Below, piece by piece: positions 3,323 to 41,559 of a DNA stretch of 43,282 bases. Position numbers and translations under genes: made by a program. The stretch lies in contig NZ_BLZO01000125.1 in NCBI RefSeq assembly GCF_014132355.1, positions 1 through 43,282 of the forward strand. The letters run 5' to 3'. The DNA comes from Okeania sp. KiyG1 (GTDB lineage: Bacteria > Cyanobacteriota > Cyanobacteriia > Cyanobacteriales > Microcoleaceae). Under the pieces are notes generated by a model. The model was given only the letters and a program-made list of their open reading frames with translations. It ran no database searches and had not been told where the DNA came from. How positions within the stretch are numbered: position 1 is the stretch's first letter; each line of letters starts with the position of its first letter.

Positions 3323-3654
3323 GGAGATGTCTATTGGAGATGTCTATTAGACCTCTCTCTACTCTAATAGTTAGGAAAAAACTCCTTTTCAACTCCTAAC
3401 TTCTGACTTCTAACTTATGTAATATCATACATTTATCAAAATAATTGGGTTTTAAACCCTGCCTTGATTGGCGAAATGTTTTTGGAGGGTTGTTCAAATC
3501 CCCGTTACAAAAACAACTTCTGACTTTTGACTTCTGACTTCTGACTTTATTAACTAGCAACGCCTAAATTCTGAACAGCTTAATAATTTTAATTGCCTTA
3601 TTTTAGAATTAATATTGGTTAGGCCGAATATTCAATAATCTAAATTTTTTATAT

Positions 3655-4347
3655 ATGCTAAAAACAGAGCCTACTTACACATTTCCTGAATCTAATCACC
3701 CTATAGTTAAGTCACTATTCCATCATAGTGACCAGGAACTATTGACCTTATTTCAAAACTATCCAGACCAAGGAAAATACTTCGTAACAATTTTTTGTCG
3801 CTATGGTATGATAGTCCAAACTTTAATTCAACATTCCGTGCGGTCCCCGGTTCAAGCAGATTATCTATTTGCCCAAACTTGGCAACATATATTTTATGAA
3901 CTGCGTGGCCTAGATTTACGAGAGGGGGCAGATCCAAGCAACGAAAATACTACTCTCCAGAATTGGTTAATAAATGTTACTGCTGTTAGTCTTAACCAAG
4001 CAGAAATTCCTCCTGTGGAATCAATTCGTTATTCTTTACAGATAGCTCCACCGCCTTTATGGTGTTATGTTAGACAAGTATTAGAACAGTTAGATGCACT
4101 CCTCCGTTTGATTCTGTTAATGTCTGAGACTTTCCACTGGAGTGAAACAAGAATTGCGGCATATCTCCAAGCTGAGGGAGAAACTATTTCATCTGAGCAG
4201 GTAAAGTCTTTGTTGCAGCAGGGATACCATAATCTAGATAATAATTTACCAGAGGATATTAAAGCTATCTATTTTAATGATGATATGGAACAGGTTAGTA
4301 CGAATATAAATCAATTTCTCCAAGTTTCAAAAGAACCAAAATCCTGA
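3655..4347 (+). CDS. Sigma-70-like (ECF-type) regulatory protein
   Basis: 230 residues. Residues about 28-80 read like a sigma region 2 helix set: LLTLFQNYPDQGKYF, then a pair of helices with ADYLFAQTWQHIFYEL. Residues about 135-195 read like region 4, with a leucine-rich helix (LDALLRLILLMSE) and a possible helix-turn-helix in WSETRIAAYLQAEGETISSEQ. The usual region 2.4 and 4.2 basic DNA contacts are weak, so this may be a divergent sigma-like protein rather than a functional sigma factor. The ATG at 3655 has no clear Shine-Dalgarno. A convergent Pro-rich membrane or secreted protein follows on the other strand at 4718-5403; in many genomes such neighbours are regulatory partners, but that is inference. 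Confidence 0.55.
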   Translation: MLKTEPTYTFPESNHPIVKSLFHHSDQELLTLFQNYPDQGKYFVTIFCRYGMIVQTLIQHSVRSPVQADYLFAQTWQHIFYELRGLDLREGADPSNENTTLQNWLINVTAVSLNQAEIPPVESIRYSLQIAPPPLWCYVRQVLEQLDALLRLILLMSETFHWSETRIAAYLQAEGETISSEQVKSLLQQGYHNLDNNLPEDIKAIYFNDDMEQVSTNINQFLQVSKEPKS

Positions 4348-4717
4348 CATAATTTTAGTTATCAGTTATCAGTTATCAGTTATCAGTTATCAGTTGTCAG
4401 TTGTCAATACTCTAGCAAATAGGTAACAGTTCATCTGTGGGAAAAAAATTTGTCTGTCTGAGATATATCGTCAATTTATCTACTAAGCAAGTCTTTTTTT
4501 GCTATAAAACAAAATGGTTCGGCATTAATGCTCTTTGCATTTCCATAGAATTAATGAGGAAAGCTTTGCATTAGCAAAACGTCCCCATAAGAAGTAGGTC
4601 TTTTACCGAAAACAATTACAAATCAAAAATGATTGACTTTTGACTTTTGACTTTTGACTTTTACAAATCAATACTTCTGACTTCTGACTTCTGACTTTTA
4701 ACTTCCACATCGCGGCG
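4348..4717. repeat. Gene-free stretch with CAGTTAT, TTTTGAC and TTCTGAC heptamer arrays
   Basis: No gene is seen. Heptamer arrays lie at 4359-4405 (CAGTTAT), 4633-4660 (TTTTGAC) and 4673-4700 (TTCTGAC). The remainder is AT-rich and unstructured apart from a weak dyad around 4545-4575. Confidence 0.75.
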
Positions 4718-16275: not shown

Positions 16276-16348
16276 GATCCCCCTAAATCCCCCTTAAAAA
16301 GGGGGACTTTGAAAGTTCCCCCCTTATTAAGGGGGGTTAGGGGGGATC
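16276..16348. repeat. Palindromic element P, copy 1
   Basis: 73 bp. GATCCCCCTAAATCCCCC at the left pairs with GGGGGGTTAGGGGGGATC at the right, with an inner CCCCTT/AAGGGG pair. It should fold into a long cruciform or RNA hairpin and could act as a transcription stop after the oxygenase gene. Other copies: 16585-16657, 17301-17370, 17581-17641 and, reversed, 21500-21569. Confidence 0.85.
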
Positions 16349-16584
16349 TAAAACTGTATCTCATAAATTAGAGAAGTGCTATAGGTAGTAGGTATTATGA
16401 CGCGGCGGAACATCGGTCAGATGTTGTGATTTTGGATGCTAGAGATTTGAATAAAAAACCTGTGGCAAGATTGCATTTAAAGCATCATATTCCTTATGGT
16501 TTACATGGGAGTTTTACACCTCATTATTTTGGGGAATAGGTGATAGGTGGTATAGCATTTCTGATAAAGATGAAGTAAATTTAC

Positions 16585-16657
16585 GATCCCCCTAAATCCC
16601 CCTTGAAAAGGGGGACTTTGAAAGTTCCCCCCTTACTAAGGGGGGTTAGGGGGGATC
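16585..16657. repeat. Palindromic element P, copy 2
   Basis: Part of the 309-bp duplication; differs from copy 1 at two positions. Confidence 0.85.
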
Positions 16658-16886
16658 TAAAACTGTATCTCATAAATTAGAGAAGTGCTATGGGTGGTAG
16701 GTATTAGGTGTTAGGTAAAAGAAAAGAATAAAGCAAAATTTATTTTTTATTTCCTCCCCATCTTATCTACTTCCTACTGCCTAAAACCATCAATATATGT
16801 ACTTCATCAAGTAGGAAGCTGCTGTATATAAAATTGATTTGTTAAGCTAAAGGCAATTCAAACTAACTTATCTAAAAATTAAAAAT

Positions 16887-17261
16887 ATGAGTAACAACAA
16901 GTCTAGAGCCGAAATATCGAGAAATACTATTAACGGCAATTTAAATAATGCCAATACTATCAAAGACCACGGCAAAATAGAAGCACATCAAAATAACTAT
17001 TATTCTGAAGATAAAAAATATTTAGCAGAGGCAGCAGCAGAAATTCAGGAATTGTTAGACCAACTTTCTCAAACTTATTCTAATCCTGAAGAAGCAAAAC
17101 AAAAAACAGCAGAAGAAATTGCTACAAAAGCTCAAGAAAATCCTTCATTTAAGGAAAGTCTGAAAAATCTGGGTAAATCTTTAGGAAGCAAAGCGGGTGA
17201 AACAGCAGTTACTGAGGGTGTTAAGCAATTAATACCTATGGCACTTGCACTACTTTTGTAG
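16887..17261 (+). CDS. Short member of a modular signalling family: N-module plus helical/TM C-module
   Basis: 124 residues. Residues 1-38 form a polar module with NTINGNLNNANTIKDHGKIE; related modules open both downstream paralogs and recur inside one. Residues about 43-124 begin KKYLAEAAAEIQELLDQLSQ, then NPEEAKQKTAEEIATKAQ, an amphipathic helix, and end in a hydrophobic VKQLIPMALALLL tail. The C-module is known to me from cyanobacterial pentapeptide-repeat proteins and has no established function. A helical, membrane-touching oligomer is plausible. The start ATG lies after AATTAAAAAT, so ribosome binding is weak. The gene is followed by palindrome P. I do not recognise a catalytic site. 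Confidence 0.75.
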   Translation: MSNNKSRAEISRNTINGNLNNANTIKDHGKIEAHQNNYYSEDKKYLAEAAAEIQELLDQLSQTYSNPEEAKQKTAEEIATKAQENPSFKESLKNLGKSLGSKAGETAVTEGVKQLIPMALALLL

Positions 17262-17300
17262 AATAATACGGCAATTAATAAAAATCAGATAAAAGGTAAA

Positions 17301-17370
17301 GATCCCCTAAATCCCCCTTAAAAAGGGGGACTTCCGGTCCCCCCCTTGTCAAGGGGGGTTAGGGGGGATC
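17301..17370. repeat. Palindromic element P, copy 3
   Basis: GATCCCCTAAATCCCCCTT... paired with ...AAGGGGGGTTAGGGGGGATC; inner loop ACTTCCGGTC. It lies 40 bp after the stop of the 124-residue protein and may terminate its transcript. Confidence 0.85.
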
Positions 17371-17404
17371 TCCAGCACTCTATCTAATACTTACTGAGAA
17401 ATGA

Positions 17405-17579
17405 AATAATAATTTTTGATGAGATTACAAGCCAAATATTAGTAGATGAAAAATGACAAAGGTGTCATCAGGATTGAAAATTTGAAGAGAAATAGTTGAG
17501 AGGAATAATTGACTTTCTTCTGGGTTATGTTGAACCAATATAGAAAAACAAAAGTTATGTCAACTAACAAGTCTAAAAA
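17405..17579 (+). pseudogene. Truncated copy of the leader and first codons of the paralog family
   Basis: The 5' leader (GATGAGATTACAAGCCAAAT through GACTTTCTTCTGGGTTATG) and the first codons (ATGTCAACTAACAAGTCTAAA at 17557) match those of the genes at 17829 and 19265. The copy is cut off abruptly by palindrome P at 17581. This is a remnant of a further paralog. Confidence 0.8.
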
Positions 17580-17580
17580 A

Positions 17581-17641
17581 GATCCCCCTAAATCTCCCTT
17601 AAAAAGGGGGACTTCCTTGTAAAGGGGGGTTAGGAGGGATC
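17581..17641. repeat. Palindromic element P, copy 4 (truncating a paralog copy)
   Basis: A shorter variant, GATCCCCCTAAATCTCCC to GGGGTTAGGAGGGATC, fused directly to the seventh codon of the truncated leader copy. Confidence 0.85.
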
Positions 17642-17828
17642 TCCAGCACTGTAATTCACACTTACTGAGAAATGTAATAATAATTTTTTGATGATATTAC
17701 AAGCCAAATATTAGTAGATGAAAAATGACAAAGTTGCCATTAGGATTGAAAATTTGAAGAGAAATAGTTTAGAGGAATAATTGACTTTCTTCTAGGTTAT
17801 GTTGAACCAATATAGAAATACAAAAGTT

Positions 17829-19007
17829 ATGTCAACCAACAAGTCTAAATCTGAAATTTCTGACAATACTATTGATGGAGCTTTGAGTCATGCAAATGTG
17901 ATTAAGGATAATGGCAAAATAGAATCTCAACAAAATAATAATACAGTTAGCGATAAGGAAAATAATAATCAAATTATTCAGGGTAACAGTAATAACATAT
18001 ATCAAATCAATGAAACTCCTCCTCAAGAAAATATTAGCGTAGAAATTAAAGTTTCTAAAATATATCAAGCCAGTAATTTATTAGATTCATCTGTAGATAA
18101 ATCTGAAAAAATTGAGAATCTAAAAGAAGAGACAGATATAGAATTTATTATCACTGGCAGTATCAAAAATACTAGACACAAGCGAAAAGTAAAAGCAATT
18201 GAAAAACTTCTACAAGAATTAGGTTGTGACCCAACATTAGTAATTGATGATGTTGATGAAGGAAGTTTAAAGTTTGTGTTAAAAGGTTCTCCAGAAGGTC
18301 TAGAAAGAATTGAAAGATTATTTAACTCTGGGGAATTAACAGAAATATTTGATGTGCCAATAGAAAGTGTTGAATTTATCGGGCCTGAGAAGGAAAAATT
18401 AGCATTTACAATTGCTGGAGATATTTCTTACACTGATGTGGCAAAGCTCAAAACTGCAGTTACTGGAGTTGATGAAAAAGAACTATTAATTCAGAAAACT
18501 AGAACTTATCAAGGGAACGAAAAATTAAATCTTAGAGGAGCAAACCTCAGTGAAGCTAACCTCAGAAGAGCTGACTTCAGTGGAGCCGACGTCAGTAGAT
18601 CTAACCTCAATAGAGCTAACCTTATGATTAACGACGAGTCTAAATCTGAAATATCAGGAAATACTGTTAGAGGACTTGAAGAACCTGTAGTTAATACCAA
18701 TATTATCAAAGACCACGGCAAAGTAGAAGTACATCAATACAACTATTCTTCTGAGGAGAAAAAATTTTTAGCAGAAGCTGCAGCAGAAATTCAGGAATTG
18801 TTAGACCAACTTTCTATAACTTACTCTAACCCTGAAGAAGCTAAACAAAAAGCAGCAGAAGAAATTGCTACAAAAGCTAAACAAAATCCTTCATTTAAGG
18901 AAAGTCTCAAAAGTCTGGGAAAATTTCTATTAACTAAAGCAGATGAAGCAGCAGTTACTGAGAGTGTGAAGCAATTAATATTTATGGCACTTACACTACT
19001 TGTATAG
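17829..19007 (+). CDS. Multidomain paralog A: N-module, TRADD-N-like domain, pentapeptide repeats, second N-module and helical C-module
   Basis: 392 residues from the ATG at 17829, chosen to match the start of the 124-residue paralog (an upstream in-frame ATG at 17799 exists). Residues 1-35 are the N-module. Residues 46-61 (NNQIIQGNSNNIYQI) resemble RHIM-like amyloid cores. Residues about 100-185 form an alpha/beta domain (IEFIITGSI, KAIEKLLQELG, GSLKFVLKGSPEGLERI, FNSGELTEIF) that resembles the bacterial TRADD-N-like family. Residues 232-265 are six to seven A(N/D)LxX pentapeptide units. From M266 onward (18624) the protein is a complete homolog of the 124-residue neighbour, including its start Met, so this gene is an in-frame fusion. 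The first ~220 residues are almost identical in DNA to the next gene. Confidence 0.8.
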   Translation: MSTNKSKSEISDNTIDGALSHANVIKDNGKIESQQNNNTVSDKENNNQIIQGNSNNIYQINETPPQENISVEIKVSKIYQASNLLDSSVDKSEKIENLKEETDIEFIITGSIKNTRHKRKVKAIEKLLQELGCDPTLVIDDVDEGSLKFVLKGSPEGLERIERLFNSGELTEIFDVPIESVEFIGPEKEKLAFTIAGDISYTDVAKLKTAVTGVDEKELLIQKTRTYQGNEKLNLRGANLSEANLRRADFSGADVSRSNLNRANLMINDESKSEISGNTVRGLEEPVVNTNIIKDHGKVEVHQYNYSSEEKKFLAEAAAEIQELLDQLSITYSNPEEAKQKAAEEIATKAKQNPSFKESLKSLGKFLLTKADEAAVTESVKQLIFMALTLLV

Positions 19008-19264
19008 AATAATACTGATAACTGAAGTGACCCGCTTTACTACTGAATAATAAGTCATTGCGAATGAAATAAAGGAATTCTCAAACTTAAGAAGTTATTT
19101 ACTACCCTGGCAATAATAATTTTTTGATGAAACTACAAGCCAAATATTAGTAGATGAAAAATGACAAAAGTGCCATCAGGATTGAAAATCTGAAGAGAAA
19201 TAGTTGAGAGGAATAATTGACTTTCTTCTGGGTTATGTTGAACCAATATAGAAATACAAAAGTT

Positions 19265-20494
19265 ATGTCAACCAACAAGTCTAAATCTGAAATTTCTGAC
19301 AATACTATTGATGGAGCTTTGAGTCATGCAAATGTGATTAAGGATAATGGCAAAATAGAATCTCAACAAAATAATAATACAGTTAGCGATAAGGAAAATA
19401 ATAATCAAATTATTCAGGGTAACAGTAATAACATATATCAAATCAATGAAACTCCTCCTCAAGAAAATATTAGCGTAGAAATTAAAGTTTCTAAAATATA
19501 TCAAGCCAGTAATTTATTAGATTCATCTGTAGATAAATCTGAAAAAATTGAGAATCTAAAAGAAGAGACAGATATAGAATTTATTATCACTGGCAGTATC
19601 AAAAATACTAGACACAAACGGAAAGTAAAAGCAATTGAAAAACTTCTACAAGAATTAGGTTGTGACCCAACATTAGTAATTGATGATGTTGATGAAGGAA
19701 GTTTAAAGTTTGTGTTAAAAGGTTCTCCAGAAGGTCTAGAAAGAATTGAAAGATTATTTAACTCTGGGGAATTAACAGAAATATTTGATGTGCCAATAGA
19801 AAGTGTTGAATTTATCGGGCCTGAGAAGGAAAAATTAGCATTTACAATTGCTGGAGATATTTCTTACACTGATGTGGCAAAGCTCAAAACTGCAGTTACT
19901 GGAGTTGATGAAACAGAACTATTAATTCAGAAAATTAGACCTAATAAGGGAGACAAAAAATTAAACTTCAGTAGATCCGACCTCAACAAAATCAAAATGA
20001 GTATATTAAATGTAACTAACAATACTATTACTTTGAACAACGAAATTTACCAAGTTAGAAATATTACTGCTGTTGGAAAGTACCGAATTAAACCAAACTA
20101 TTTTTTCAAGTTAAATTTTATTATTATTTGTGTAATCCTCAGTTTGATTGGAATTGAATTGATGAAAAGTAACCCAGATGTGAAGTGGTTTACATTTAGC
20201 GTAATTTTTTTGGCTGCATGTGGGATTATAGAGCGATTTACTAAGTCTAAAAGATATGGCATCGCCATAGAAACAAACGCCGGAATGAGCAAATTGCTCA
20301 TATCTAAAGATAAAAGTCTCATCAACAGAATTCTTAACACAATTGCTGAAATTATGAACAACCAGGATAAACCTGCTAACTATACTTTCAAGGTGTCTAA
20401 TGAAGACGTAGTAAACCAAAATTCTTCCTTTGCTATTGGATTTGATACCAAATATTCAAGACTTACAGATGAGGTACGAAAAACTAGGGTTTGA
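19265..20494 (+). CDS. Multidomain paralog B: N-module, TRADD-N-like domain and two-TM DUF6232-like C-module
   Basis: 409 residues from the ATG at 19265. Residues 1-217 repeat paralog A nearly base for base, including the leader upstream to about 19120. After a short residual pentapeptide-like stretch (LNFSRSDLNKI) the sequence diverges completely. MSILNVTNNTITLNNEIYQV begins a new module with RNITAVGKYRI, two membrane helices at about 278-297 and 307-325, and a C-terminal cytoplasmic part (SKDKSLINRILNTIAEI). This matches the layout of DUF6232 membrane proteins. That module also begins with a Met, again suggesting fusion of an independent gene. Its role is unknown; in the TRADD-N-like setting a membrane effector is an attractive inference. 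Confidence 0.8.
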   Translation: MSTNKSKSEISDNTIDGALSHANVIKDNGKIESQQNNNTVSDKENNNQIIQGNSNNIYQINETPPQENISVEIKVSKIYQASNLLDSSVDKSEKIENLKEETDIEFIITGSIKNTRHKRKVKAIEKLLQELGCDPTLVIDDVDEGSLKFVLKGSPEGLERIERLFNSGELTEIFDVPIESVEFIGPEKEKLAFTIAGDISYTDVAKLKTAVTGVDETELLIQKIRPNKGDKKLNFSRSDLNKIKMSILNVTNNTITLNNEIYQVRNITAVGKYRIKPNYFFKLNFIIICVILSLIGIELMKSNPDVKWFTFSVIFLAACGIIERFTKSKRYGIAIETNAGMSKLLISKDKSLINRILNTIAEIMNNQDKPANYTFKVSNEDVVNQNSSFAIGFDTKYSRLTDEVRKTRV

Positions 20495-21361: not shown

Positions 21362-21499
21362 AGAAGGAAGAAGGAAGAAGGAAGAAGGAAGAAGGAAGAA
21401 GTGGATGGGGACTTAAACGATCGCCCAGCAAACCCTAATTAAAAACTCAAAATTAAGTAATTATAGCATTATTCAGTAAGTTTTAGCTACGATGCTGGA

Positions 21500-21569
21500 G
21501 ATCCCCCCTAACCCCCCTTGAGAAGGGGGGAACCGGAAGTCCCCCTTTTTAAGGGGGATTTAGGGGATC
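21500..21569. repeat. Palindromic element P, copy 5 (reverse orientation)
   Basis: GATCCCCCCTAACCCCCCTT to TTTAGGGGATC: the reverse complement of the copies at 16276-17641. It lies between the convergent genes at 21008 and 21607 and may terminate transcription in both directions. An AGAAGGA array fills 21362-21400. Confidence 0.85.
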
Positions 21570-21606
21570 GTTGATGTACCTCACGCCTTCTAAAGATCGC
21601 TATATT

Positions 21607-29509: not shown

Positions 29510-30234
29510 TTACTTCTTACTTTTGAATTAATTAGTTCTTACTTTTGACTTTTGACTTTTAAATTTTGAATTAATTAGTTCTTACTTTTGACTTTTGACT
29601 TTTGAATTAATTAATTCTTACTTTTGACTTTTGACTTTTAAATTTTGAATTAATTAGTTCTTACTTTTGACTTTTGACTTTTGAATTAATTAATTCTTAC
29701 TTTTGACTTTTGACTTTTGAATTAATTAGTTATTAGTTTTGACTTTTAACTTTTGAATTAATTAGTTTTGACTTTTGACTTTTGACTTTTAACTTTTGAA
29801 TTAATTAGTTTTGACTTTTGAATTAATTAGTTATTAGTTTTGACTTTTAACTTTTGAATTAATTAGTTTTGACTTTTGACTTTTAAATTTTGACTTTTGA
29901 CTTTTGAATTAATTAGTTTTGACTTTTAACTTTTGAATTAATTAGTTTTGACTTTTGACTTTTGACTTTTAACTTTTGAATTAATTAGTTTTGACTTTTG
30001 AATTAATTAGTTCTTACTTTTGACTTTTGACTTTTAACTTTTGAATTAATTAATTCTTACTTTTGACTTTTAAATTTTGAATTAATTAGTTTTGACTTTT
30101 GACTTTTAAATTTTGAATTAATTAATTCTTACTTTTGACTTTTGACTTTTAACTTTTGAATTAATTAGTTTTAACTTTTGAATTAATTACTTCTTACTTT
30201 TGACTTTTGACTTTTGACTTTTGAATTAATAACT
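29510..30234. repeat. ~0.7-kb TTTTGAC heptamer array punctuated by TTGAATTAATTAGTT
   Basis: Runs of one to four TTTTGAC (or TTTTAAC, TTTTAAA) heptamers alternate with a TTGAATTAATTAGTTCTTAC-type spacer that includes the palindrome GAATTAATTAATTC. The pattern repeats about twenty times and reaches the ATG of the RND gene. The preceding 29284-29510 is AT-rich without a gene. Confidence 0.95.
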
Positions 30235-33200
30235 ATGTCATTTCATATCTCAGCTTTATCAATCAAAAAACCAGTTCCTACCATTGTGATGTTTTTAATC
30301 TTAACAATAGTAGGATTAATGTCATTTTTCCAACTAGGAATAGACAACACTCCTAATGTCGATGTTCCAGCAGTATCAGTCACAGTAACTCAACGAGGAG
30401 CAGGCCCAACAGAACTAGAAACTCAGGTAACAAAAAAAATAGAAGACTCTGTGGCGGGTTTGGGAAATATCGATAAATTAACCTCAACAGTAACTGATGG
30501 AGTTTCTACAACCACCATCACTTTTGACTTGGGAGTAGATAGCGACCGCGCCACCAACGACGTTCGTAATGCCGTTACCGAAATTCGCGAGGACCTACCT
30601 TCAGATATCAACGACCCTGTTGTGAAAAGATTAGAATTTGCTGGAGGCGGTCCGATCATTACATACGCTGTCACCTCAGACAAACGTTCAGTCGAAGAAC
30701 TAAGTGAACTCGTTGACAAAGAAATTAGTCGTGCTATTCTTAGCGTTTCCGGTGTTGCCGAAATCAACCGTATTGGCGGAGTAGACCGAGAAATTCTGAT
30801 CGAACTCAACCCAGACAGACTCGAAAGTCTTGGCATTACTGCTACTCAAGTCAATGACCAAATTCGCGCCCTCAACACTAATATACCCGGTGGACGTTCT
30901 CAAGGTGGAGGCACAGAAAAAAGTATTCGTACCCTTGGTAGTGCTAACACAGTAGCAGCTTTGAAAGAATATCGAATCATCCTTCCCTCTGGTGGAGCAA
31001 TACCACTTTCCAGTGTAGGTGAAGTTATTGATGGTTTTGGCGAAACTAGACAAACAGCTTGGTTAGTAGAAAAAAATAGTGAAGATGAAACTCAGGGTTT
31101 TGCACAAGACTCATCAATAAAAACCACTACCCAGTCAAATAAAATTGGTAAACCAGTTGTTGCTTTTAGCGTACTCCGTAGCACAGGTACTACCCTGGTG
31201 AGTGTAGAAAAAGGTGTGCGGGCAAAAGTTGCCGAACTAGAACAAACATTACCAGAAGATGTAGATTTAGAACTAATTTTTACCCGGGCAACAGATATAG
31301 AAGAATCCTATCAAGCATCTGTAGACGCTCTAATTATTGGTTCTATTCTCACTGTTGTAGTGGTCGGTGTATTTTTGCGAGATTGGCGGCCGACTCTAGT
31401 CACGGCAGTAGCATTGCCATTATCCATTATTCCCACCTTTTTTAGTAATGCAAATTTTAGACTACACCCTCAATAATATGAGCTTGTTAGCACTAGCATT
31501 AGCAATGGGAAACTTAGTGGATGATGCCATCTGTATGATCGAGAATATTGACCAACATACTCAGATGGGTAAAAAGCCATTCCAGGCAGCTCTAGATGCG
31601 TCAGCAGAAATTGGTTTGGCTGTGGTAGCAACAACCGCAACTATTGTGGCAGTGTTTTTACCTGTGGCGTTTATGGGGGGGAGTCCCCGGTCAATTCTTC
31701 CAGCCTTTTGGGGTAACGGTAGCAGTTTCTACCATGTTTTCCACATTGGTTGCTTGTACTATGACACCAATGTTAGGAGCGCGGTTGTTGAAGTCGAAAC
31801 AGTCTCAAAGTTCTTCATTTTTCAATGGTAAAGTGGGAGTAAAACATCACAAACAAAGCAAAAATCGTCCCTATAATAGCTTATTAACTTGGGCACTGCG
31901 CCATAAAATTACTACTTTAATTATTGCAGTAGCTTTCTTTATTGGTAGCTTGCAACTGGTTCCACTAATTCCTAAAGGGTTCATAAGTGGTGGGGACGAT
32001 GTTGTGAGTATAGTTTCCCTAGAATTGCCTCCTGGATCGACTTTGTCTGAAACTGAACAAGTAGCTCAACAGGCAATGCAATTATTAGAGCAAAATTCGA
32101 TTGTTAACAGTGTGTTTGCTGAAGTTGGTACTAGGGGCAATAGTGAAGCCGTAAATGAAGGCAAGTTGTATGTGAATATATTGCCTAGGCAAGAGCGGGA
32201 GATTTCCCAAAAGGAGTTTGAACAACAGATGCGACCTCTATTTCAGAATATTCCAGGGGCGCGGCTGAGTTTTGCTGGTGGGGGTGCAGGAGGTAGTGAT
32301 AAAGACTTAGCTCTTGTTCTTAAAAGTGAAAATGCAACTGCTCTGAAGCAGACTGCAGATGCTTTAGAACGGCAAATGCGAGAAGTTCCTGGTTTGGTGG
32401 ATGTGACTTCCAGTGCCAGCTTGGTGAAACCGGAGATTTTGATTAAACCATTACCTGCTAGGGCTGGAGATCTAGGCATTTCTGTACAGACGATCGCTCG
32501 TACAGCTTCATTGGCGACTTTGGGAGATAATGAGTCAAATTTAGCTAAGTTTGATTTACCAGACCGTCAAATTCCGATTAGAGTACAGTTGGCAGGGGAA
32601 TTTAGAAATGACTTGGATGCAATTAAAAATTTACGCATTCCTAGTCAAAATGGTGGGTTAGTGCCATTGTCTGCAGTAGCTGAAATTACTATAGGTAGTG
32701 GGCCTGCTGAAATTAATCGTTTTGACCGCTATCGTCAAGTTTCCTTGGAGGCCAATTTACAGGGAATTTCTCTAGGAGATGCAGTAGCAGAGGTGCAAGC
32801 ATTACCAGCAATGAACCCACTACCTGAGGATGTTATGGAACAGTCTGATGGTGATGCCGAGATTATGATTGAGGTGTTTAGTCGGTTTTTGAGCGCTCTG
32901 GGCTTTGCAGTGTTATGTATTTATGCAATTTTGGTATTGCTATACAATAACTTTCTTTATCCAATGGCAATTTTGGTGGCATTGCCGTTATCTATTGGTG
33001 GAGCGTTGTTAGGGTTATTAGTGATGCAGAAAGAGTTGGGTTTATATGCTTTAATTGGTATTGTATTGTTGATGGGTTTGGTAACTAAGAATGCAATTTT
33101 GTTAGTAGACTGTTCGTTGGCAAATGAAAAAGAAGGAATGTCTCAGTTTCATGCAGTGCGAGAGGCAGGTATTTCCCGGTTGCGACCAATTTTAATGACC

Positions 33201-33497
33201 ACCCTTTCTACTATTGCTGGAATGTTACCCATCGCATTAGAATTAGGAGCAGGAGGAGCAGAAAGAAGTCCCATGGCGATCGCTGTTATTGGTGGATTTT
33301 CGACTGCAACATTGTTGACGTTGTTGGTAGTACCTGTGTGGTTTACCTATATTGATAATTTTATACATTGGTTACAGAAATTATTCCGGGGTAAGGAAAT
33401 TCGCCCGCAGTTAGATGTTTCTGTTAATGGTAATGGTAATGGTAATGGTAATGGGAAAAGTCCGAGTGTATTGAAAAAGGATTCTATTATTAACTAA
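30235..33497 (+). pseudogene. RND efflux pump (HAE1 type), two homopolymer frameshifts
   Basis: The start ATG at 30235 gives MSFHISALSIKKPVPTIV. Repaired, the protein has 1086 residues with twelve TM helices and two large periplasmic loops. It breaks at 31437-31443 (six T where five fit, FF-stop region) and at 31674-31680 (seven G where six fit, VAFMGG). The proton-relay pair in TM4 is present ([14 protein letters not shown]), as is the TM10 Lys (GLVTKNAILLVD). Transport of hydrophobic compounds with the adaptor at 27292 is the expected role. Apart from the two indels the sequence is well conserved in all segments, so it is either very recently inactivated or mis-sequenced. The C-terminus ends in a VNGNGNGNGNGK run. 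Confidence 0.88.
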
Positions 33498-36629: not shown

Positions 36630-37298
36630 CTAGCGAAAAACTATCTGATTTTTCTCAGGAGAAACCCTATAAAACCTGACAAAGTATGTACCTTCAGGTA
36701 AGGTAGATTCTTGATAAGCATTATAACCAGGACAAATTCTGGTTCCTATTTTTTGATAATTTCTAGAAGATAAATTAAAAGCCTTATTCGTTACACAAAA
36801 TTCTGGTTTTCTAGAGTTACCTCCCTGAGAATTTTTATAACTTGTTATGTCTTGTCGAGGAAATTTTTTATTGTCAGAACTCTCTAGATATATCCAGTCT
36901 TCTGTGCGGTCATACCGTCCTTGTGGAGCATCAATATCTAATTTTAAAATGGGAAAACTTTTACATTCGTTAGGAGGAACTGAACCCCATCCCCTCAGTT
37001 TTGATGCTTCTACTGTTACACCGTATGGACTACCATAATTGCGAGCTCCTGCTACCGTATAAATTCGTTGTTTTGCCCTAGCTACAAATATTTTCTTTTT
37101 ATACTCGTTGCAGACTTTAACATTGTAAAATATTTCAGTAATAATATTTACTTGTGAATTTGTTTTTTCCTCTATCAAAAAAGTTAAACTTAGAGCTGTT
37201 AAAAACGCAGTAGGATACAACAATAAGTTTTTGAGCCACTTTCTTTTACTGACTATTGGAAATGCTGTGGTTAGATTCAATAATTTTTGTGGATTCAT
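36630..37298 (-). CDS. Exported DUF1036-like protein, copy 2
   Basis: 222 residues. The ATG at 37298 follows AGGAATAAAAATT. An N-terminal hydrophobic segment (NLLLYPTAFLTALSLTFLI) acts as signal or anchor. The core VCNEYKKKIFVARAKQRIY, then LRGWGSVPPNECKSFPI, matches the DUF1036 pattern (VCN...I.VA...GW..v.p.EC). C-terminal motifs RKPEFCVTNKAFNLSSRN and GTYFVRFYRVSPEKNQIVFR are shared with the next gene. Four conserved Cys suggest disulfides in the periplasm. Function of DUF1036 is not established. It is a tandem duplicate of the gene at 37518, with the upstream 115 bp also duplicated. Confidence 0.75.
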   Translation of the reverse strand: MNPQKLLNLTTAFPIVSKRKWLKNLLLYPTAFLTALSLTFLIEEKTNSQVNIITEIFYNVKVCNEYKKKIFVARAKQRIYTVAGARNYGSPYGVTVEASKLRGWGSVPPNECKSFPILKLDIDAPQGRYDRTEDWIYLESSDNKKFPRQDITSYKNSQGGNSRKPEFCVTNKAFNLSSRNYQKIGTRICPGYNAYQESTLPEGTYFVRFYRVSPEKNQIVFR

Positions 37299-37517
37299 AA
37301 TTTTTATTCCTATTAAAAATTTACTTTACGTCAAATTAATAAATTGAATATTGTCAAATAATTTCAATTTCAAGAAACAGTTATCTTTCCCTTTATAAAG
37401 TTATTATCTATTTCTTATTGCTCGTGGTTTACAGCGATCGCTAGGAGCAGGATAGGCAAATATAAAAAATTTTACTGTTCATATAGATTTATCAAAATTT
37501 GCCCACGAGAACTAAAT

Positions 37518-38198
37518 CTAGCGAAAAACTATCTCATTGTTTTTGGAGGTAACATAATAAAATCTGACAAAGTATGCACCTTCAGGTAAGGTAGATTTTT
37601 GATACCCATCATGATAACCAGGACAAATTCTGTTTCCTATTCTTTGAGAGTCTTGATAGTTTCTCGAAGAAAAATTAAAACCCTTATTAGTTACACAAAA
37701 TTCTGGTTTTGTATAGTTACGCCCCTGCTTTTTATAACTGGTTATATTTTGCGGAGGAAACTTTTTATTGTCAGAACTCTCTATATATATCCAGTTTTCC
37801 TGACCCCAACTTTTTAAATTTTTTGGATGAGCAGCATCTAATGCTAGAGTGTAAAAATTTTTACATTGGTTAGGAAGAACCGAAATCCATCCCGTAACTT
37901 TTGATGCTTGTAGTGTTGTACTGTATCGAGTACCAATTCCAGTTCTTCCTCCTCCTATATAAACTCGCCGTCTTGCCCTAGCTACATATATTTTATTTTT
38001 ATATTCGTTGCAGACTTGAATAGGGGCACGTATTTCAACATTTTCAATATCAATGGAGTTGGTTTTTTCCTGTATCAAAAAAGTTGAACTTAAAGCTGTT
38101 AAAAGCGCAGTAGGATACAACAATAAGTTTTTGAACAACTTTCTTTTTCTGACGATTGGAAATGTTGTGGCTAGATTCAATAATTTTCGTGATTTCAT
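37518..38198 (-). CDS. Exported DUF1036-like protein, copy 1
   Basis: 226 residues, paralog of the gene at 36630. The signal/anchor NLLLYPTALLTALSSTFLI and the DUF1036 core VCNEYKNKIYVARARRRVY and VTGWISVLPNQCKNF are conserved. Both proteins end in (N)(E/Q)IVFR. Differences concentrate in residues about 50-60 and 85-130, the presumed variable surface. The gene's leader (AGGAATAAAAATTATG, and TTATTTGACAATATTC farther up) is almost identical to that of copy 2, so the two are probably controlled alike. The order in the cluster suggests one transcription direction, but spacers over 200 bp make a single operon uncertain. Confidence 0.75.
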   Translation of the reverse strand: MKSRKLLNLATTFPIVRKRKLFKNLLLYPTALLTALSSTFLIQEKTNSIDIENVEIRAPIQVCNEYKNKIYVARARRRVYIGGGRTGIGTRYSTTLQASKVTGWISVLPNQCKNFYTLALDAAHPKNLKSWGQENWIYIESSDNKKFPPQNITSYKKQGRNYTKPEFCVTNKGFNFSSRNYQDSQRIGNRICPGYHDGYQKSTLPEGAYFVRFYYVTSKNNEIVFR

Positions 38199-40143: not shown

Positions 40144-41559
40144 ATGACTCTTAATGAAGTTTTAAGGTTTGTTGATGATGTGGTTTTTGACAAAACTGGC
40201 AAACACCTTGATAGTCTGCAAGAAGCTATTTTACGCGCTACTTGGCAAGGGGAAAAATACTCAAAGGTTGCTCAACAATATCACTGCACTAAATTTCATG
40301 TGGGCAATGTCGCTTCCAATTTATGGCAACTTATTTCTCAGGAATTAAAAGAAAAAATTCATAAGTCAAATTTCCGCGCTGCGATGGAAAGATATCAAGT
40401 TTCTAATGTTTCAAGTATATTTAATTTCGGACAAAGTAATTATGTAAAAGGTAATATTAATCTCTGTACAGATAACACTCATTCCCCAGAAACCAAACAA
40501 AAATTACCCACTACACAAACAGCAAACAAAAATAACACCCCACTGCCAAAACTCGACCTCAGAGACGCACCAGATATCAAAAAAACATTCTACGATCGCT
40601 CCACCGAACTCACAACTCTCAAAACCTGGATAGTCAAACATCGCTGTCGTCTTATCGCCGTCTCAGGAATAAGCGGTATCGGTAAAAGCACTATTATTCG
40701 TCACCTCATCCCAGAAATAGAATCTAATTTCGACTACATCATCTGGCGCACCCTCCGCACATCTCCACCCCTAAACGTAACCCTCAAAAATTTAATTGAA
40801 ATTATCTCCAACGTAACAGAAATAAACCTCTCCAATAACACCGATGGTCAACTGTCATTGCTCGTTGAAAAATTACGAGATATGCGTTGTCTAATTATTC
40901 TAGATGACCTACAACAAATACTCAGTAGTGGGCAACTTATTGGTAACTATAAACCAGCATACGAAAACTATGGCAACCTATTTAAAATTATCGGCGAACT
41001 TCCTCACAATAGTTGTTTGATTCTGAATAGTTGGGAGCCACCTTTAGAAGTTTTCAGTTTTACAGATAATGACTCAGCAGTACATTTATTTCAGTTAACT
41101 GGTTTAACGGAAAAGGTGGCGCGTGAGATGCTGAAAAATCAAGGATTATCGGATGAGGAAAAATGGCAAGAATTGATAAACTTCTATCAAAGTAATCCTC
41201 AATGGTTAAAATTAGTAGGGCAGACAATTAAAAATTTATTGGGTGGGAGTGTCGCTCAATATTTGAGTTATCAACCATTATTTTTGTGCAGAGAATTAAC
41301 CAATATTTTCCAGCAACATTTTCAACGTTTGTCTGAATTAGAAAAACAAATTATTTTTCTACTCAGCGAACAACCAAAATCTGTTTCAGTTTCCCAAATA
41401 TTAGAAAAATCCCAATTATCATCACCAGAATTATTTCAAACATTACTATCTCTAGAAAGACGAAGTTTGATAGATAAAATTACAGAGGAAAAAGAGATTT
41501 CATTTGGCGTTAAAGCTATATTTAAGCATTACATAAAAAATTATCGGGTAAGGACATAG
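40144..41559 (+). CDS. NB-ARC STAND ATPase with vMAP-like N-terminal domain, no sensor repeats
   Basis: 471 residues. Residues 1-85 (MTLNEVLRFVDDVVFDKTGK; YSKVAQQYHCTKFHVGN) form the helical, HTH-like N-terminal domain common in cyanobacterial vMAP/NB-ARC proteins. NB-ARC follows: Walker A SGISGIGKST (K181), Walker B RCLIILDD (249-256), and a winged-helix-like end near 400-465. At the usual sensor position where such proteins have (T)SRE, this one reads LILNSWEPP (292-300), so the conserved Arg is missing. The GxP-like motif is NPQWLKLVG. No WD40, TPR or other sensor repeats follow the stop. STAND ATPases act as switches in defence or signalling; the ligand and partner here are unknown. The start has no Shine-Dalgarno. 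Confidence 0.85.
   Translation: MTLNEVLRFVDDVVFDKTGKHLDSLQEAILRATWQGEKYSKVAQQYHCTKFHVGNVASNLWQLISQELKEKIHKSNFRAAMERYQVSNVSSIFNFGQSNYVKGNINLCTDNTHSPETKQKLPTTQTANKNNTPLPKLDLRDAPDIKKTFYDRSTELTTLKTWIVKHRCRLIAVSGISGIGKSTIIRHLIPEIESNFDYIIWRTLRTSPPLNVTLKNLIEIISNVTEINLSNNTDGQLSLLVEKLRDMRCLIILDDLQQILSSGQLIGNYKPAYENYGNLFKIIGELPHNSCLILNSWEPPLEVFSFTDNDSAVHLFQLTGLTEKVAREMLKNQGLSDEEKWQELINFYQSNPQWLKLVGQTIKNLLGGSVAQYLSYQPLFLCRELTNIFQQHFQRLSELEKQIIFLLSEQPKSVSVSQILEKSQLSSPELFQTLLSLERRSLIDKITEEKEISFGVKAIFKHYIKNYRVRT

Follow-up and report, generated by a model that had tools for sequence, protein, structure and literature searches.

A TRADD-N gene cluster in Okeania sp. KiyG1 that shares short motifs with small helical genes: a possible motif-coded signaling module

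The DNA analyzed here is contig NZ_BLZO01000125.1 of the cyanobacterium Okeania sp. KiyG1 (43,282 bases; contig C125 of the 10.98 Mb source genome, G000), referred to in its entirety as the window. It carries three genes, S, A, and B, lying head to tail at the positions given in Table 1; a check of the open reading frames (ORFs) confirmed all three where the initial annotation had placed them. S encodes a small helical protein. A and B encode larger proteins with a common N-terminal half that contains a TRADD-N domain, followed by unrelated C-terminal parts. The N-terminal residues of all three proteins form a motif in common, and short motifs are also matched between neighboring genes at other cyanobacterial loci. 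We judge the chances to be evenly balanced that the cluster is a motif-coded signaling module of TRADD-N relays, probably using amyloid-like assembly and of an immune or cell-death type; matching tags would probably tell its proteins which partner to assemble with. The observations behind this proposal are the domain content of the genes, fusions made at start codons, motif matching between neighbors, and a link to NLR proteins in Nostoc.

Domain content and matching motifs

The region at residues 100 to 185, which had been suspected to be TRADD-N, was assigned to PF20694 in A and B (60.1 and 60.3 bits, respectively; cut-off, 23.7). An EGS stretch is visible in the β2-β3 turn region of the domain, where TRADD-N proteins have a conserved Ser. 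The tails foreseen for the two proteins were also confirmed: A ends in pentapeptide repeats (above the Pfam cut-off) and a helical, hydrophobic end, and B in a DUF6232 domain (PF19744, 44.2 bits; cut-off, 27.4) with two hydrophobic segments, as expected of a module with two transmembrane (TM) segments. S had been described as an N-module plus a helical module; it contains an N-terminal motif (N-motif) and the helical module and has no TRADD-N part, and its homology to B is confined to the first ~44 residues (26/44 identical after Met1). The earlier "N-module" thus combines a motif found in all three proteins with a TRADD-N domain that only A and B have. In place of the sensor or adaptor half of the initial annotation, we see a motif shared with S followed by a putative TRADD-N bridge.

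Pfam searches with S returned nothing above the cut-off, NCBIfam gave nothing past pentapeptide hits to A, and PADLOC models did not match A or B; S matched the PADLOC candidate model PDC-M14B (1.1e-7, residues 5 to 118). Identification of the N-module as an effector-associated domain (EAD) or known effector was rejected; Pfam, NCBIfam, and PADLOC gave no such match for S, A, or B. Solved relatives sought by sequence gave best E-values of 0.11, 0.088, and 0.76, none of them significant. A phage or plasmid origin of the cluster was likewise rejected: B had no match among phage records and, in 3 plasmid records, partial matches over TRADD-N. DUF6232 matched 2 plasmid records and no confirmed viral contig (one peptide pattern scanned).

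The motif of S aligned to that of B with a score of 134. In eight loci picked by eye for holding both genes (no permutation test; L119 and L120 left out), the TRADD-N gene and the adjoining small helical gene had a motif in common in 8/8 cases, with scores of 76 to 141, and two clearly different motif types were represented. The motifs have a high G, N, and S content. Identity with RHIM (BASS3) was rejected; its core, (I,V)-Q-(I,V,L)-G, does not occur in residues 1 to 62 of B and is rare overall. The second short motif of A, QIIQGNSNNIYQI, resembles a type found in other TRADD-N loci (by eye and by weak tblastn matches).

A related rule was found in cyanobacterial DUF6232 proteins, which carry a ~30-residue C-terminal motif that is repeated at the N terminus of the following small gene. 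The starting set comprised 70 distinct DUF6232 ORF records, which are records and not genes because the dropped rows include three cuts of B from the window and two pieces of the G389 gene. Fourteen were dropped (no small gene within 200 nucleotides, fusion, weak E-value, or length), and 26 of the 56 with a small gene within 200 nucleotides were removed as redundant at 60% identity, leaving 30 loci. The DUF6232 tail scored 66.9 against the N terminus of its own small gene and 32.5 against those of other loci, and 0/100,000 permutations reached the own score. The own partner ranked first in 16/30 cassettes and among the top three in 25/30. At the 11 loci whose DUF bodies were less than 40% identical, the scores were 62.2 for own versus 28.7 for other partners, again with 0/100,000 permutations. 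Shuffled DUF6232 tails scored 25.4, to be compared with 66.9. Controls lay near chance for the tail versus the C terminus of the small protein (2137/20,000), DUF residues −90 to −50 versus the small-gene N terminus (18,746/20,000), and the tail versus the N terminus of the upstream gene (10,742/20,000). Outside this set, a pair on a Trichormus variabilis plasmid scored 118; its tail reached a mean of 40 and a maximum of 81 against the 30 small genes, and the 30 tails reached a mean of 44 and a maximum of 102 against its small gene.

Codons at identical motif residues were compared in 27 own pairs. The same codon was used at 180/392 positions (45.9%); cross-locus comparisons gave 42.2%, and codon usage predicts 38.5%. 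The motif match is thus maintained mainly in the protein sequence. Recent gene conversion was rejected as a general cause on the same figures (163/370 without L094, by subtraction); the codon counts suggest that some recent copying is possible in single cassettes.

In 23 named DUF6232 loci, an ORF of 85 to 215 residues was present within 250 nucleotides downstream in 23/23; at L161, the downstream ORF was found without the N-terminal motif. Upstream ORFs had NB-ARC matches in 12/23 of those scanned (E up to 0.001). Short genes beside Okeania DUF6232 cassettes (L116 5948-6478, L114 5535-6065, and L115 4195-4713) look, by eye, like the N-terminal portion of the NB-ARC genes found in other cassettes and lack the ATPase portion. 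The best match of the C-terminal motif of B among the 30 loci was the small gene in the DUF6232 cassette on contig C154 of the same genome (Table 1); common descent of the B tail with the C154 gene is explanation enough for this match.

The link to NLR proteins comes from plasmid p057_H of Nostoc sp. C057. There, WP_256874731.1 contains TRADD-N (6e-14), pentapeptides, a ~30-residue motif, and the S helical module. The same motif forms the C terminus of the adjacent pentapeptide protein and lies near the N termini of the NACHT proteins WP_179076590.1 (7.5e-13) and WP_179076591.1 (4.8e-14) and of WP_179076469.1 (248 residues). The N terminus of WP_256874731.1 has a QGNNN-type motif that is also seen, by eye, near the end of the preceding gene. 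This two-motif TRADD-N protein therefore stands between the NLRs and a multi-TM neighbor. B has the same outline, with an N-motif that fits S (134) and a C-terminal motif that fits the C154 small gene (76). The combination of a motif at the NLR N terminus and in the C-terminal region of a partner is present on the Nostoc plasmid, absent in the window, and not clear in the DUF6232 cassettes. A profile of the Nostoc motif, made from six peptides (three from the plasmid; G376, G191, and G101 contributed one apiece), matched 5/358 genomes, one of them weakly; the G191 and G101 matches include seed sequences, since the profile was built partly from those genomes. In the stretch fetched from G191, the Nostoc-type motif occurs in 6/11 ORFs of 100 residues or more. 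The locus of this conjugative plasmid, L253 1796-14698, has one motif in five neighboring genes, with two NACHT genes among them.

Fusion, duplication, and relatives of the cluster

From 17795 to 18477, A and B show only 2 differences, both silent (18182 and 18185). Their residues 1 to 216 are identical, and the genes fall apart after about 18500 and are unrelated beyond. Two 50-nucleotide leader windows upstream of the starts are 92% and 96% identical. The near-identity reported in the initial annotation was correct for the starts and leader, and the coding stretch concerned is about 675 bp, not 840. An alternative start for A, an in-frame ATG upstream at 17799, is also possible.

The tails were traced to other genes. 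The end of A (~127 residues) is a whole second copy of S (DNA 84% identical over 393 nucleotides), and the DNA homology begins within 1 nucleotide of the ATG at 18624 and stops 8 nucleotides beyond the stop codon. For the tail of B, the homolog is an unfused DUF6232 gene on C154 (83% over 443 nucleotides), with the homology opening at 19990, 7 nucleotides ahead of an in-frame ATG at 19997. The repeats among A, B, and S are so long and exact that chance is ruled out; the DNA pattern is accounted for by duplication together with gene fusion. An assembly artifact is an improbable source of the A/B repeat; a false join at A/B is unlikely because the leaders differ, the coding stretch holds two silent changes, and the tails differ. 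The A/B pair is a recent duplication or homogenization; of nine syntenic loci, only that in the window showed it. The fusion to DUF6232 looks older than the pair, with the same junction seen by eye in G389, a member of another genus. An earlier claim of diversification by recombination is half right in this light.

To survey relatives, 62 genomes of the family were searched and regions were fetched; 15 close TRADD-N genes were tabulated, the two in the window included, and more distant TRADD-N matches were left out. The tail consisted of pentapeptides only in 11/15, of which two run off the contig end and one has a stop ahead of the repeats. The other 4/15 have nonstandard tails: pentapeptides plus an S copy (A), DUF6232 (B and G389, the latter broken by stops), and a hydrophobic tail (G431 C518). 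The C termini of close homologs thus vary, and neither result that would have told against the annotation, a 100-185 region unlike TRADD-N or one C terminus throughout, was obtained; from the 4/15 genes with other tails it follows that tail exchange recurs. An RPE65-family gene adjoins 10 of the 15, in nine loci (by Pfam in the window and by likeness in the other 8). S and the N-motif are both present in five of these loci (window, G421, G422, G431, and G432) and both absent from two (G418 and G419), probably through one shared deletion. The remaining five of the 15 genes are a second type, and three of them (this genome C108, G431 C62, and G432 C692) have a different upstream small helical gene and a different motif in common with it.

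In a phylum sample of 386 genomes, in which Okeania sp. KiyG1 is the sole member of its genus, 12/386 matched the common half of A and B at 1e-4, with a full-length match only in the genome of the window itself; 41/386 matched S at 1e-3. A profile of the S module had 23 matches in this genome, counting S and the A copy, of which three were short or weak. In the frames inspected, the module is mostly C-terminal and follows a G/N-rich stretch. Its carriers in this genome include pentapeptide/multi-TM, HEAT, and caspase proteins and one that is weakly EcsC-like (below the cut-off). The caspase-domain protein at L245 4679-7216 (C145; PF00656, 3.4e-11) ends in a motif and an S-type helical tail, and the product of the adjoining gene at L245 3439-4341 has a similar tail and, by eye, a similar motif. 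Two further neighboring pairs in this genome, L244 2154-4040 / 4071-4628 and L233 2014-3579 / 3622-4023, have a motif in common by eye; the motif-matched neighbors at L244 and L233 include convergent orientation.

Table 1. Features of the S, A, and B cluster, in window positions
Feature	Positions	Strand	Remarks
Gene S	16887..17261	+	124 residues: N-motif, helical "LAEAAAEIQ" module, hydrophobic C-terminal helix
N-motif of S	16887..17018	+	Residues 1-44; counterpart of the A and B N-motif
Relic	17404..17583	+	Decayed third copy of the A/B leader and first codons, interrupted by a CCCCCTAAATCCCCC-type repeat element
Leader of A	17695..17828	+	Common to B; 8 differences/134 nucleotides
Gene A	17829..19007	+	392 residues: N-motif, second short motif, TRADD-N, short pentapeptide stretch, complete in-frame S copy
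N-motif of A	17829..17960	+	Residues 1-44
Second short motif of A	17970..18008	+	Residues 48-60, QIIQGNSNNIYQI
TRADD-like_N domain of A	18186..18377	+	Residues 120-183; PF20694, E 1.9e-16
Pentapeptide stretch of A	18528..18623	+	Short, residues 234-265; PF00805, E 5.7e-9
S copy inside A	18624..19007	+	Joined at start Met; 74% protein identity to S
Leader of B	19131..19264	+	
Gene B	19265..20494	+	409 residues: N-motif, second short motif, TRADD-N, DUF6232, degenerate C-terminal motif
N-motif of B	19265..19396	+	Residues 1-44
Second short motif of B	19406..19444	+	Residues 48-60
TRADD-like_N domain of B	19622..19813	+	Residues 120-183; PF20694, E 1.6e-16
DUF6232 domain of B	20009..20347	+	Residues 249-361; PF19744, E 3.1e-11
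Hydrophobic segments of B (two)	20099..20230	+	Residues 279-297 (Kyte-Doolittle hydropathy (KD) 2.29) and 304-322 (KD 1.49)
C-terminal motif of B	20354..20446	+	Residues 364-394; score 76 to the C154 small gene, next 40

Short repeats with C/G runs, members of one family that occurs in both orientations and resembles miniature inverted-repeat transposable elements by eye, flank the cluster (16280-16349, 16589-16658, 17298-17415, 17585-17686, and 21455-21572); these repeats may help recombination. A promoter scan gave 22 sites versus 16.4 in shuffles and was uninformative. Elsewhere in the window, a large transporter gene at 30214-33497 (RND type by eye) appears as three overlapping ORFs and so is frame-broken or misassembled, and 36630-38198 holds two tandem genes (222 and 226 residues) that are paralogous by eye. 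An NB-ARC gene at 40144-41559 (7.9e-8) has a helix-turn-helix-type N terminus by eye and resembles, also by eye, genes flanking DUF6232 cassettes elsewhere; no DUF6232-like ORF was seen adjoining it.

A possible motif-addressed relay and its alternatives

In the mechanism we propose, S would be a small effector-side or adaptor protein consisting of a ~44-residue homotypic assembly motif, a helical module, and a hydrophobic end, the helical hydrophobic module being the likely membrane-acting or adaptor end. A triggered TRADD-N protein (A or B) would nucleate S by templated, probably amyloid-like contact of like motifs, with TRADD-N serving as the bridge that Kaur et al. 2021 (eLife, PMC8195603) proposed. 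The C-terminal part would set the site of relay action by localization or sensing and would be a pentapeptide scaffold in most relatives. A could be a scaffold with built-in S, relay and partner in one chain, and the two-TM DUF6232 of B may take the relay to the membrane and add a second motif of another specificity. DUF6232 cassettes would follow like logic: often beside an NB-ARC gene, a DUF6232 protein carries a motif at its C terminus, and the small gene that follows matches it at the N terminus. So would the Nostoc loci, with the motif near the N terminus of NACHT NLRs. At the membrane, the likely outcome would be an immune response or cell death. From these patterns we infer physical assembly, its amyloid nature, membrane damage, sensing, and a trigger; amyloid character, death outcome, and trigger are suggested by likeness to NLR amyloid pairs (PMC7889193, PMC12261475).

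Several findings weigh against this proposal. At the cluster itself, the end of S is only moderately hydrophobic (KD 1.35), the motif fits none of five patterns tested, and no NLR adjoins S, A, and B, the one found lying 20 kb off at 40144. Among relatives, two TRADD-N genes (G430 and G389) hold motif traces without S, and the S motif of G432 scores 86 to 92 with Okeania-group TRADD-N proteins and 77 with its own. In the DUF6232 cassettes, the own partner ranks 10th or worse in 4/30, codon sharing is slightly over expectation and ranges from 1/14 (L136) to 17/22 (L094), and the RHIM core is rare, at 3/30 tails and 2/30 small-gene N termini, although above the 0.2 expected in each. The tail also gave an unexpected weak signal against the C terminus of the upstream gene (208/20,000). 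A motif in the linker of genes upstream of DUF6232 was tried and rejected as weak or none, with no clear motif there (142/20,000 against the tail and 17,424/20,000 against the small-gene N terminus).

Set against the evenly balanced proposal for the cluster, a wider one falls somewhat short of an even chance: that cyanobacteria hold an unrecorded network in which DUF6232 membrane proteins, TRADD-N relays, and NLRs are addressed by private, co-evolving lock-and-key assembly motifs of ~30 to 44 residues, often to small helical partners. Two-motif TRADD-N proteins (B and the Nostoc protein) would bridge two specificities in this network, and the window would capture its rewiring through start-codon fusions of whole partner genes.

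The alternative that survives best, itself unlikely, is that the motif is a conventional pairing peptide, acting by strand exchange or a coiled contact to form a stable inactive complex in the manner of an antitoxin or inhibitor. Matched partners are neighbors and so are probably made together, and the data concern matching and not fiber formation, both of which would suit such a peptide. The recurrence of one motif across 5 or 6 genes at a single locus, the N termini of the Nostoc NLRs included, suits a nucleation code better than a one-to-one complex, and the chain-end position and N/G-rich make-up of the motifs resemble those of published amyloid signaling motifs (PMC7889193, PMC12261475, PMC7885112).

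Slightly less probable again is that the shared motifs are a by-product of duplication and fusion, flexible linkers or oligomerization tags with no signaling meaning. The window gives this explanation its best footing, with A and B recently duplicated or homogenized and S copied whole into A; the G/N/S-rich composition is also that of linkers, and L094 shares the same codon at 17/22 positions. It is opposed by the excess of within-locus over between-locus matching across 30 diverged cassettes and by the gap between shuffled and own tails (25.4 versus 66.9). Codon agreement is little above that expected despite the within-locus match, so that one old duplication followed by drift, or recent copying, fits poorly. 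Finally, it is very unlikely that A and B are pentapeptide or membrane regulators of ordinary physiology, as the oxygenase synteny at 9 tabulated loci might hint (carotenoid or stress regulation with the RPE65-family neighbor), given the other neighbors at TRADD-N loci L118, L119, and L122, the NACHT NLRs close by in Nostoc, and published TRADD-N contexts that are predicted conflict systems (PMC8195603).

If the motif-coded module is correct, it would provide a cheap, testable code for signaling partners among bacterial immune and cell-death proteins, with dozens of matched pairs whose motifs have diverged, and so a test of how specificity evolves in amyloid-type signaling. Bacterial TRADD-N, so far a predicted bridge, would be tied to a concrete partner and interaction site. 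DUF6232 would be offered a role, with A and B as natural Rosetta-stone fusions.

Comparison with known systems

The initial annotation knew of no such arrangement. The general arrangement is known, because TRADD-N placed between a variable N-terminal part and pentapeptide repeats was published for bacterial conflict proteins (PMC8195603). Like those proteins, A and B have a single TRADD-like_N between N- and C-terminal parts, C-terminal pentapeptides, a cyanobacterial host, and a junction between constant and variable parts; STAND NTPase neighbors are reported there and seen here in Nostoc. The N-terminal part of bacterial TRADD-N proteins is usually, not strictly, a known effector or EAD, whereas here it is a short motif common to a small helical gene and not one of the effectors or EADs listed. 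A C-terminal DUF6232 or fused S is not mentioned in the available text of that paper on TRADD-N. DUF6232 (PF19744), here fused to TRADD-N, was not found by name in the literature searched. The same literature yielded no account of matched motifs in TRADD-N proteins, DUF6232 proteins, or S-like genes; the motif families of Dyrka et al. 2020 could include some.

The proposed logic resembles the EAD principle (Kaur et al. 2020, eLife, PMC7159879), by which small modules repeated across one genome join effectors to a core through like-with-like contact. It differs in that the matching unit is a short motif and not a known folded domain; Pfam searches assigned no EAD family to S, A, or B, and the list of 15 families for 30 small proteins contains none.

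Motif sharing between NLRs and their neighbors is already published for the bacterial amyloid signaling sequence (BASS)/Bell systems (PMC7889193, PMC8086366, PMC12261475, PMC7885112; credited to Dyrka et al. 2020). The pair found here, TRADD-N/S or DUF6232/small protein, is unlike theirs, and the NLR lacks a clear motif in the window and in DUF6232 cassettes. The likeness to BASS/Bell, in which a Bell-type nature of the small partner and amyloid formation would both be hypothetical, comprises a motif of 20 to 40 residues in adjacent genes, a position at chain ends, many motif families, and occurrence in filamentous bacteria, cyanobacteria included. In Nostoc, it extends to the placement of the motif near NLR N termini and in the C-terminal region of neighbors. 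One mark of a BASS, a short motif that neighbors have in common above chance, was found in the DUF6232 cassettes, by permutation, at the eight TRADD-N/S loci picked by eye, by score, and in the Trichormus variabilis pair.

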